This document shows positions 25,641-30,311 of a stretch of 64,000 bases of DNA, piece by piece. Under the pieces are notes generated by a model that saw only the letters and a list, made by a program, of their open reading frames with translations, was not told the DNA's origin and made no database searches. The translations under genes and the position numbers were made by a program. Each line of letters begins with the position of its first letter. Within the stretch, counting starts at the first letter, position 1. Source of the stretch: Candidatus Microsaccharimonas sossegonensis (GTDB lineage: Bacteria; Patescibacteriota; Saccharimonadia; Saccharimonadales; Saccharimonadaceae); NCBI GenBank assembly GCA_004100325.1, contig SCKX01000001.1, positions 1 through 64,000 on the forward strand, in the 5' to 3' direction.

Positions 25641-27071
25641 TTAGTAGTTTTCAGCTGGAACGATACTTTCTGCCCAAAGTTGTAACTCTTCGAGCACAAA
25701 CCTTTTGTTCGTAACCTCTTCTTCATGACCAATCGTCGTACTTAAAGCTTGTAATCTTTTGATAAAACCAGGTAACTGTTTGGTGATCCGCTCAGTTCGC
25801 CACTTTTCCCATAACAATACTTCGTCTTCTGTTAGACTTTGTGGATAATTACGCGCCTTATAGTGTAATAAAAGTGGTGATAAGCGCTCATCATTGAAAT
25901 CGGGGTGTAAATCAGCCAATTGCTCCGCATCAGCTTTGCGTACTTTTTCAATCCGTAACGTATCGACGCTTTCAACGAAGCCATCATATAGCTGCGCTTC
26001 GGCGTCATATGATTTTGTAAATTCCGGACGCTTTTCAAAGATAGTACGGATATTCTCCGCAAAACTTGGGACGGACAATAACATATTCCGATGCTTTATG
26101 ACCCTTTCTTCATCCAGTCCGACGCGTTTCCAGCCATCAGATTGCTCTAACACACCTAGAGGGGCAACCGCCGGTGCGCGATTGTACTGCAGTTCTTTTA
26201 CCGGAATAAACATAAAGCCATCGGCTTGCCTTTCTTCCCAACTCGCGTACATACGTTTTTCTAGGTCAGATAGAGAGAGGTTTAAAAATGGCGTTGGGTC
26301 ATGGCGAAGGTCATACACGATTACGTTGCTATGACGACCACTGGTTAAAGGGAAGGCAACAGTAGCTTTATGAAATTCGGCATCGTACCGTCCACTGACG
26401 TACACAAATGGGCGTTTATCGTCAAGGTTCACGAGCTTTTTGACTTCTTTTTTATCCCGAACAGTGAAAAGATAGCGGTACAACTGTGGCTGTTTTTCTT
26501 TTATTAATCGAGTGACCGAGATAAGTGCATGGACATCACTGAGTGCATCATGTGCATGTTGGTGGTCGATACCATTCAGTTTGGTGAGAAGTTCAAGCTT
26601 ATTCACTGCTTTACCATCTATAAATGGCCACTCAATACCCTCAGGTCGCAGCGCCCGGGTCATCCTTGTGACATCCAACATATCCCAGCGTGATCGCCCA
26701 TCTTTCCATGTCCATTCATATGGATCATAAAAATTGCGCCAAAAAAGATGTCGGATAAACTCATCATCAAATCGAATATTGTTAAACCCAACTGTTATCG
26801 TATCGGGAGTAAAAACATCTTCCATTAAGAACCGGCAGAATTCGGCTTCGGTGTAACCATCGGCTTGCGTCTGCTGCGGAGTAATACCCGTTACCATTAA
26901 GGCATCTGGGCTTGGAAGGATATCGTCGTTTAATTTAACAAGAATATTATACGGTTCGCCTATCGGTTCCAGCTCCAAGGTGGTGCGTATGCCAGCAAAT
27001 TGCATGATCCGATCGTCTTGCGGGCTCAGTCCTGAAGTTTCAAGGTCATAAAAAAAGAAAGTATGAGACAT
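25641..27071 (-). CDS. sbcB: Exodeoxyribonuclease I
   Basis: 476 residues, the usual SbcB size. The DnaQ-like exonuclease domain shows FFFYDLETSGLSPQDDRIMQFAG (catalytic Asp and Glu), GFNNIRFDDEFIRH and HDALSDVHALI. The ExoI SH3-like and C-terminal domains follow. It degrades single-stranded DNA 3' to 5' in recombination and mismatch repair. The start ATG lies six bases after TATGCT, itself within the T run of the preceding RNA terminator. Confidence 0.93.
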   Translation of the reverse strand: MSHTFFFYDLETSGLSPQDDRIMQFAGIRTTLELEPIGEPYNILVKLNDDILPSPDALMVTGITPQQTQADGYTEAEFCRFLMEDVFTPDTITVGFNNIRFDDEFIRHLFWRNFYDPYEWTWKDGRSRWDMLDVTRMTRALRPEGIEWPFIDGKAVNKLELLTKLNGIDHQHAHDALSDVHALISVTRLIKEKQPQLYRYLFTVRDKKEVKKLVNLDDKRPFVYVSGRYDAEFHKATVAFPLTSGRHSNVIVYDLRHDPTPFLNLSLSDLEKRMYASWEERQADGFMFIPVKELQYNRAPAVAPLGVLEQSDGWKRVGLDEERVIKHRNMLLSVPSFAENIRTIFEKRPEFTKSYDAEAQLYDGFVESVDTLRIEKVRKADAEQLADLHPDFNDERLSPLLLHYKARNYPQSLTEDEVLLWEKWRTERITKQLPGFIKRLQALSTTIGHEEEVTNKRFVLEELQLWAESIVPAENY

Positions 27072-27084
27072 ATATCTAGCATAA

Positions 27085-27527
27085 CAAAAAACACGCCATC
27101 TGGCGCGTCTAGGTAAGAATAGTTCATTAAAATAAAAGAATAGCTAGGTACGGTGTCTGGAAACCACGGAGGAGTGATACCGCAGTATATGCGGTGGGCA
27201 GTGAGCTCGGGGGGAGTCTCGCCACTTCATCACTCCTCCGTGGAGGTGGGAACGGACTGGACGCCGCGCCGCACCATACTCGCCACCCGATCAAACGGGG
27301 AACACGAACTCCAATTGGGGGGGAGGAGCCGGTCGAAAGACCGTGGTGACGTTTGACGGCGAAGCGCCCATCCAGCCGGGGCCAGAATAGCGCAGTGCCG
27401 TTAAAATTACAGTCCCTTGCGGGACAAATGTGGAATATGTGGAATATATGGATTACATCCATACTTACCAAATTAACCGTACCTAGCTATCAACGTTCCT
27501 CAGGAAACTAATGCTTCGACTGATTCT
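27085..27527 (-). ncRNA. Unidentified long structured RNA
   Basis: About 440 bases without a convincing protein frame. A strong promoter (TTGACT at 27556-27561, 17 bases, TATAAT at 27533-27538) fires on the minus strand, and a hairpin with T run (about 27086-27110) ends it. A perfect 15-bp stem pairs 27140-27154 with 27476-27490. Inside it, 27164-27178 pairs perfectly with 27229-27243, and shorter hairpins include 27179-27183 with 27191-27195, a GNRA-capped GTCCC/GGGAC, and CGGTC/GACCG. The size and strong promoter suit a housekeeping RNA, but I see no RNase P core motifs, no tmRNA acceptor or T arm, and no SRP apical motif. A divergent RNase P RNA cannot be ruled out. Confidence 0.7.
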
Positions 27528-27532
27528 TTTTG

Positions 27533-27561
27533 ATTATATCACCAAGTTTTTAAAAAGTCAA
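27533..27561 (-). promoter_or_regulatory. Consensus promoter of the structured RNA
   Basis: TTGACT and TATAAT with 17-base spacing and a TG extension (TGA-TATAAT). It is the closest to full consensus in the window and drives no protein gene. Confidence 0.85.
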
Positions 27562-27587: not shown

Positions 27588-28892
<1,305 letters not shown>

Positions 28893-28961: not shown

Positions 28962-30311
28962 TTAATGAACGTACTGGTAAAGGCTTGCTTGACCGGCGCT
29001 AATCGTACGGGTGTTTATAATGTTAAATCCACCATACGCCCAGTTATTCATCTCACTGATGACGACGGTTCCATCGGCTGCAACACTTTCAACGACAGCG
29101 TTGTGACCAGGATTTCCCGCTTGGACGAGGACAGCTCCAAAAGCCGGTGTGTTGTCAACCACATACCCAGCGGCACGGCCACTGATTGCCCACGAACCAC
29201 CATTACCCCAGAAGCTTCCGACGGGCATACCCAAGGCTAAGCGACGCTCGTATACGTACCATGTACAGTTACCCCAGGCATATTTATTACCAGGTGATGG
29301 CGGGCGGGTATTTACATAGGCACCACCCCCAATACCAGCGCTCATAGAACCTGTAGCACCAGTAGTACCTGTCACACTCGTGTTTGCGGTGTATCTGACA
29401 GGCGCTACGTACCCAGGCTGTTCATTGTTAGGAAGAACACCATTTGGAATAATGATTTTCATACCAGGTGTGATACCACTAATTTCAAGGTCGTTATAGG
29501 TAGTGATAAGTGATACGTCGGACTTGTATTTATCGGCAATAATCTGGAGTGTATCTCCAGTCTTCACAGTGTATGCGATACCATCGCGAGGAAGAATAGT
29601 GAGGCTAGAGCCCACAATCAATGTATCAGTACTAAGGTTATTAGCCCATTTTAAGGTCTGCTTTGAAATACCATATTTTGCAGCAATTGAATCTGTTGTA
29701 TCGCCAGCCGCAACCGTATAACTGGTTATCTGCCGGCTGGCTGAAGCAACTTGGATAATCTGAGGTTTTGAAATTGCAGAGCCATCAGAGCTTGGAAGCG
29801 CACTTTGAATTTGGGTGGAAATGGCCATGCTTACTACCGATGGTGCGACGGAAAGATTTGTCGTATTTGCAACATTTGCCGCAATATTGGAAGCAACGAC
29901 GTCATTAACGGTGGCGGGTGCATCTGTCGGGGTTGTCGTAGTCGTTGCAATAGGTGCAGTGTTTGCGAGTCCGGAGACTTGCTGTGGTGCGCGGTAACCG
30001 ATAGCAATAAGTACGACCAGCAGTGCAAAAACACTTGCGTAGACAGCAACGCTGGACGATTTAATTCGACTTTTGTCTTTTATAAAACGTTTTCGGACGA
30101 GCGGTTGCGGCGACGTGGCCACAACGGATCCGTCGGCAGTGTTGCCAGTGATGTGATTACGGATTGTTGTTCTCCTGCCACACCGTATTACTACGAGGGC
30201 GACTACCTTACTAAGTCTTACTTCCACACAGGAAAGGGGTACATGTCGACCGATGTCATTAGTATTATTTCTTAAATATCGGTACCCGTGCGACCGTTTT
30301 GGTAGGCTCAT
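28962..30311 (-). CDS. LysM-CHAP cell-wall hydrolase
   Basis: 449 residues. An N-terminal cytoplasmic part of about 80 residues precedes a membrane segment (about 88-108), a Thr/Ala/Ser-rich linker, two LysM domains (about 198-242 and 246-290) and a C-terminal CHAP domain with catalytic Cys in WGNCTWYVYERR and His in PGHNAVVE. It is expected to bind and cut peptidoglycan during division or host contact. The ATG at 30311 has AGGA with suitable spacing. Another ATG four bases upstream opens an overlapping 16-codon frame (MNEPTKTVARVPIFKK). A promoter about 100 bases upstream gives a real leader. Confidence 0.9.
   Translation of the reverse strand: MSLPKRSHGYRYLRNNTNDIGRHVPLSCVEVRLSKVVALVVIRCGRRTTIRNHITGNTADGSVVATSPQPLVRKRFIKDKSRIKSSSVAVYASVFALLVVLIAIGYRAPQQVSGLANTAPIATTTTTPTDAPATVNDVVASNIAANVANTTNLSVAPSVVSMAISTQIQSALPSSDGSAISKPQIIQVASASRQITSYTVAAGDTTDSIAAKYGISKQTLKWANNLSTDTLIVGSSLTILPRDGIAYTVKTGDTLQIIADKYKSDVSLITTYNDLEISGITPGMKIIIPNGVLPNNEQPGYVAPVRYTANTSVTGTTGATGSMSAGIGGGAYVNTRPPSPGNKYAWGNCTWYVYERRLALGMPVGSFWGNGGSWAISGRAAGYVVDNTPAFGAVLVQAGNPGHNAVVESVAADGTVVISEMNNWAYGGFNIINTRTISAGQASLYQYVH

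Follow-up and report, generated by a model that had tools for sequence, protein, structure and literature searches.

What is the RNA that appears to be encoded between obgE and sbcB in this genome of Saccharibacteria? A sequence-only reading had proposed a strongly structured RNA of about 440 bases belonging to no family. It had been made on the window, by which we mean the whole stretch of DNA analysed, i.e. the first 64 kb of the 796-kb contig C1 (genome size, 810 kb). The elements that define the locus are as follows.

27588..28886, minus strand: obgE, the upstream neighbour (from the ORF list), used as synteny anchor
27533..27561, minus strand: sigma-70 promoter TTGACT-N17-TATAAT, matching 11/12 consensus positions; an equivalent promoter is found in the same place in congeners
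27086..27527, minus strand: predicted RNA-gene transcript of ~442 nt, its start set ~6 nt past the -10 box; modelled from the promoter and terminator positions and the fold (z = -8.1)
27086..27110, minus strand: intrinsic terminator AGACGCGCCAGAUGGCGUGUUUUUU, an 8-bp GC-rich stem followed by a T-run (-12.6 kcal/mol, z = -4.5)
25641..27071, minus strand: sbcB (exonuclease I), the downstream neighbour (from the ORF list), with homologues in 17/17 genus genomes

A predicted RNA gene on the minus strand

obgE, the RNA gene and sbcB are co-directional, all on the minus strand, and little spacing separates them. The earlier reading had not named a strand; its stems, promoter and terminator all fit the minus strand. 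The promoter, with its -35 box at 27561-27556 and its -10 box at 27538-27533, had been described as the best in the window. It does match 11/12 consensus positions, but it shares this score with three other window sites and is thus not the sole best, although it is the only one of the four with a perfect -10 box. The terminator was also found as described: at 27110-27086, the minus strand has a hairpin rich in GC that is followed by a T-run.

Folding of the minus-strand RNA (27527-27088) gave -181.1 kcal/mol, compared to -133.2 ± 5.9 kcal/mol for shuffled sequences (z = -8.1), none of the 100 shuffles reaching the same value, in agreement with the strong structure that had been claimed over some 440 bases. 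The fold of the plus strand was weaker (z = -5.65), and a plus-strand reading was rejected on this ground and because the promoter, the terminator and the covariation described below are all on the minus strand. Taking the region for an independent minus-strand RNA gene, and not for a UTR, is a reading supported by the sequence. In many congeners, a TATAAT-like box is present immediately upstream of the ATG of sbcB. Because this box abuts the start of the gene, it suggests that the sbcB mRNA is leaderless in these bacteria.

The transcript would be made up of the following parts.

27500..27523, minus strand: 5' hairpin UCAG-UC-GAAGC....GUUUC-CUGA with a 2-nt bulge (z = -3.3; covariation in 12 relatives)
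27486..27496, minus strand: boxA-like motif ACGUUGAUAGC, a weak one in the window RNA, at the position of boxA in the 16S leader of the genome
27476..27490, minus strand: leader arm of the closing helix, AUAGCUAGGUACGGU, a perfect 15-bp complement with covariation at 13/13 pairs in 23 RNAs
27155..27475, minus strand: core between the arms, 321 nt, GC 0.57 (genome, 0.46), hypervariable between congeners
27371..27386, minus strand: hairpin with a C-run loop, UCUGGCCCCGGCUGGA (predicted fold)
27309..27330, minus strand: hairpin with a C-run loop, GGCUCCUCCCCCCCAAUUGGAG, holding the anti-SD-like CUCCUCC
27164..27243, minus strand: 3' three-way-junction domain with the inner 15-bp stem (-45.1 kcal/mol, z = -7.1)
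27140..27154, minus strand: trailer arm of the closing helix, ACCGUACCUAGCUAU, on the same basis as the leader arm (15-bp complement, covariation)

Both perfect stems noticed from the sequence were recovered: 27476-27490 and 27140-27154 are exact 15-bp complements, as are 27229-27243 and 27164-27178. A further C-run loop, GACUC-CCCCC-GAGCUC (27203-27218), lies within the 3' domain, and both nearest relatives have kept a C-run hairpin. The CUCCUCC found in one loop region is complementary to Shine-Dalgarno sequences. The core is probably the mature RNA that RNase III cleavage would leave.

Known RNA families and proteins

With Rfam 15, no family reached its gathering score in the region, and matches with E values up to 10 were at chance level; the homologous gaps of 23 relative loci gave no Rfam match either, in line with the suggestion of a new class. 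The other suggestion, a very divergent RNase P, tmRNA or SRP RNA, was not supported, since RNase P RNA and tmRNA are encoded elsewhere in the genome, the SRP core motif is absent and the core is far too variable; the search against Rfam indicated for this purpose gave no significant match to any of the three. The RNase P RNA model (RF00010) did not match the region at E values up to 10, and the real rnpB is at C1:355255-355600 (263 bits). Similarly, the tmRNA model with tRNA-like ends (RF00023) did not match the region, the real tmRNA being at C1:358519-358915 (85.8 bits). The SRP RNA models RF00169 and RF01854 had no match in the region, and the helix 8 core CAGG..GGAA..AGCA was found on neither strand. 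Neither of these two bacterial SRP models detected an SRP RNA anywhere in the genome (G000), so that, in contrast with the detected RNase P RNA and tmRNA, the SRP RNA of this organism is either divergent or missing. These three RNAs resemble the window RNA in size range and strong promoter. A housekeeping role, which size and promoter had suggested, is doubtful, since in one close congener the RNA is gone, with a scar left in its place.

The models for 6C RNA and RNAIII did not match in the region, and no rRNA match was found within the core (Rfam). A 114-aa ORF overlapping the RNA on the minus strand was discarded as a protein gene: it had no Pfam match and its GC content was flat over the codon positions (0.58/0.54/0.54), and it looks spurious. 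No coding periodicity was seen in the core. A phage or plasmid origin was also considered and rejected, blastn of the RNA in phages giving no match; four pattern matches in IMG/VR had no trailer arm and were put down to chance. No paralogue of the RNA was found in its own genome, and a search of open papers found no published description of it. The window contains one other structured RNA, lysM-TM7 (RF03005, 97.7 bits), at 30172-30307 on the minus strand, overlapping the start of an ORF for a LysM-type protein. It comes from the same lineage, is classified by Rfam as cis-regulatory (138 positions) and is unrelated to the region studied here.

Comparison of obgE–sbcB gaps

Since a family-wide blastn recovered only two congeners, we used synteny, i.e. 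the obgE–sbcB gap, to find homologues. sbcB was located in 17/17 genus genomes and in the best 80 database loci, and the gap was read wherever both genes were present. Its size was bimodal, either 0-103 bp or 310-1,700 bp, with ordinary protein genes occupying a few of the long gaps. A long gap led by a consensus-type promoter was detected by the scan in 13/17 genus genomes, and a fourteenth (L025) was visible by eye. Typically, such a gap holds, in this order, a promoter, a 5' hairpin, a long-range closing stem, a GC-rich structured core and a terminator; three gaps (L024, L044 and probably L056) contain tandem units. Looking for homologues between the two genes, as had been advised, thus disclosed a class of RNAs with a common layout. 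The gap of L026 measures 53 bp and has no RNA. In the congener G007, a scar is left, in which the end of the 5' hairpin is fused to the trailer arm and terminator. The RNA is thus dispensable in this close congener, and since it has been lost there, we do not regard it as essential.

The covariation check on these homologues, also advised, brought out compensatory changes in both the closing helix and the 5' hairpin. In the closing helix (13 bp, 23 RNAs), two-sided changes were found at 13/13 pairs, with 102 two-sided cells as compared to 26 in shuffled controls, and a covariation score of 0.938 versus 0.218 after shuffling and at most 0.13 in slid registers. In the 5' hairpin (12 RNAs), both sides had changed at 9/11 pairs, and 0/500 shuffles reached the observed score of 0.642 (versus 0.246). 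The helix arms were registered by hand and chosen partly for their complementarity, so that the percentage of paired positions is biased upward. Independently of this registration, the 796-kb contig contains 81 promoter-like sites, of which the window locus alone is followed by a complementary arm of more than 10 nt. The cores, by contrast, are nearly unalignable, even among close congeners. A covariance model built on the 5' leader (R1) was too weak for a broad search: with 16 candidates scored per genome, it gave matches at E ≤ 0.05 in 7 of the 394 genomes of the family.

An rRNA-type frame

The layout is that of the genome's own 16S unit, which consists of a promoter, hairpins, a boxA (GATCTTTGACAATTTAG), an arm (TTTAGTAGTGCAAATC), the 16S sequence, the complementary arm and a terminator; CTTTGACAATTTAG is retained in congeners with a readable 16S leader. 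In the RNAs of relatives, the corresponding place is taken by CAUUGACAAG or CUUUGACAAG, and in L069, L085 and L172 by the exact rrn boxA core, TTTGACAA. The motif of the window RNA, GUUGAUAG, is degenerate, its version CGUUGAUAGC being the weak end of the series. The leader-trailer helix expected of an rRNA-type unit is present, with 15 bp and covariation at 13/13 pairs. The window RNA has in common with the pre-16S leader and trailer of bacterial rrn operons the promoter, a leader hairpin, a leader/trailer helix and a terminator; its helix arm starts at what may be a boxA-type motif. It differs in its weak boxA match and in its core, which is hypervariable, measures ~320 nt and encloses no rRNA. 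The leader hairpin is also unlike the rrn one, model R1 finding no match in rrn leaders at E up to 5.

Scanning the 796-kb contig for a boxA-like core with a 12-nt complementary arm within 2.2 kb yielded six hits: the 16S gene, the present RNA (at a distance of 340) and four others at 1.45-1.88 kb, which are unannotated and which we regarded as chance. Applied to the complete congener G117, the scan picked up the 16S gene and the homologous RNA, along with a third unit, located at 429 kb, and two more hits at long distance. The RNase P and tmRNA genes of the genome studied here have no such boxA/helix leader. The genes for NusB and RNase III are present and adjacent (G000 C1:771170-772780). 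Formation of active 30S subunits in E. coli requires the leader–trailer helix, and boxA mutations have 2-3-fold effects there (PMC10250234). Taken as a whole, the comparison supports the existence of a lineage-wide, uncatalogued class of RNAs with an rRNA-like frame.

C-run loops and small ORFs within the frame

Over the 23 RNAs, 15 hairpin loops made of C-runs were counted, versus 1-6 in 12 shuffled sets, and no G-run hairpin loop. The window RNA had 2 such C-run loops and its two nearest relatives 3 each (about 0.3 per RNA when shuffled), and no conserved ORF was seen in these three. Other relatives contained more short ORFs led by a Shine-Dalgarno sequence than expected by chance (51 versus 21.4 ± 5; for those of 3-12 aa, 42 versus 22). 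Eight SD-led ORFs ended in SGF plus 0-2 residues and a stop, where 0.003 were expected; because their serine codons are of both the TCN and the AGY type, this points to selection on the peptide sequence. Heptapeptide-size ORFs of this kind, ending SGF(T/I/E/LM)-stop, recurred in the gaps of L024, L038, L039, L043, L060, L073 and L100. A basic-x-basic motif was present in nine short ORFs (1.4 expected).

Ten SD-led ORFs of 17-45 codons, picked by eye as candidates so that the figure is descriptive, had a pooled GC content of 0.48/0.56/0.93 at the three codon positions; for reference, the mean GC3 of G117 ORFs was 0.51 ± 0.057, and two genes for ribosomal proteins had values of 0.43-0.44. One pair of 43-codon ORFs (L068 and L071) differed by 2 synonymous and 10 non-synonymous nucleotides, which does not fit purifying selection. 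Longer ORFs with no Pfam family above cut-off were found inside similar frames in L085, L079, L093, L107 and two further units of G117. The G117 units (C1:429079 and 476737) lie between other genes and contain ORFs of 52 and 153 aa with a GC3 of 0.87-0.88; a 149-aa ORF of like kind follows. Upstream of sbcB in L085, a frame with an rrn-like boxA surrounds the ORF of a 168-aa protein that probably has a signal peptide (MSHSSNIGRRIFGLAATS...) and that matches no Pfam family. Neither the 153-aa protein, searched in phages, nor the 168-aa protein, searched in plasmids, had a match. In gut or rumen Saccharibacteria (L079 5992(-), L093 6339(-) and L107 6323(-)), a frame of promoter, hairpin and closing stem surrounds a membrane-protein ORF, the stop codon of which is inside the closing stem in L079.

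Proposed function and alternative explanations

The explanation that we retain, with a probability of about 0.45, is that the locus is a gene for a stable RNA, probably processed by RNase III, that the window copy probably acts in trans as a regulator with C-rich loops and that the frame is a general high-expression cassette, since in relatives it holds micro-ORFs or small proteins. The Nus complex would allow RNA polymerase to read through the strongly structured, untranslated core, after which RNase III would cleave the closing helix and set free a stable core RNA of ~320 nt. In the subclade of the window, this core might work in trans like RNAIII, its C-run loops, one of them with CUCCUCC, pairing with mRNAs at their G-rich Shine-Dalgarno sites. 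Elsewhere in the Saccharibacteria, the frame would carry translated micro-ORFs or small proteins, the window copy being a non-coding form. As relatives place translated ORFs in the frame, this non-coding form may be derived or decaying. The C-run loops may also serve only against misfolding.

We favour the trans-acting function of the window copy by analogy with two known RNAs. RNAIII of Staphylococcus aureus is likewise a multi-hairpin RNA (~500 nt) with C-rich hairpin loops and small ORFs (here present in relatives; dual function). It brings its C-rich loops to bear on the sites where ribosomes bind its target mRNAs (PMC2837412). The window RNA differs from it by its rRNA-like framing and by the lack of an Rfam match. 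The 6C RNA of Actinobacteria has hairpin loops made of cytosine runs (PMC4046766), as do the window RNA and its relatives, a resemblance and not a membership: 6C RNA is ~100 nt long with two such hairpins, while the window RNA has ~440 nt, a closing helix and no Rfam match.

The chief competing view takes the frame for a high-expression mRNA cassette that serves micro-peptides and small proteins. The function would reside in the peptides, and the window copy, having earlier contained ORFs of this sort, would be a non-coding derivative reduced to its RNA scaffold, or would retain an ORF that is hard to recognise (MKWRDSPRAH...). The excess of SD-led short ORFs, their SGF endings and basic-x-basic motifs, the GC3 of 0.93 and the full small-protein ORFs enclosed in L085, L079, L093, L107 and G117 all speak for it. 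However, such ORFs are missing from the window RNA and from the two relatives nearest to it, among which the MKWR frame is not conserved, and the substitutions in the L068/L071 pair (2 synonymous, 10 non-synonymous) also argue against it; we consider it possible, at well under even odds. Another view, that the locus is a relic, or an almost neutral insertion into an intergenic site of very high variability, with a working promoter and terminator around a functionless core, would account for a core that can hardly be aligned between close congeners, for the clean loss in G007 and for the absence from the 53-bp gap of L026. It does not sit well with a closing helix maintained by compensatory changes in 23 RNAs, with the strong fold and C-run loops that both the window RNA and the relatives nearest to it have retained, or with a promoter-led long gap in at least 13/17 genus genomes, and seems rather unlikely.

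The co-directional and closely spaced arrangement of obgE, the RNA and sbcB is what one would expect of a cis element, either a regulatory leader of sbcB or the 3' UTR of obgE. We hold this to be very improbable in view of the RNA's own promoter after obgE and the strong terminator before sbcB, and also of the box that suggests a leaderless sbcB mRNA in many congeners. Even less credible is a divergent housekeeping RNA (SRP, RNase P or tmRNA): its size and strong promoter, and the failure of two SRP models to find an SRP RNA elsewhere in the genome, speak for it, and the RNase P RNA and tmRNA at other sites, the missing SRP core motif, the unconserved core and the loss in a congener speak against it.

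Significance

No known family matches the putative class, and no description of its combination of an rRNA-type frame, a hypervariable core and, in relatives, micro-ORFs was found in open papers. As a group, Saccharibacteria are known as episymbionts that live with hosts. A broader idea, which we consider improbable, is that they reuse the transcription and processing frame of rRNA as a cassette holding RNAs that are very stable, evolve fast and carry micro-peptides, the codon usage of which would resemble that of high-GC actinobacterial hosts; these RNAs or peptides could act at the interface between symbiont and host, the window RNA being the non-coding form with C-run loops. If the explanation retained above is right, episymbiotic bacteria have a lineage-wide, unlisted class of RNA in which the frame of the rRNA operon was copied for non-ribosomal RNA. 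It would provide a natural test of the roles of boxA and of the leader–trailer helix outside rRNA, and it draws attention to recurrent peptides of very small size (SGF(T)-stop, 7-8 residues), the amino-acid sequences of which seem to be under selection.
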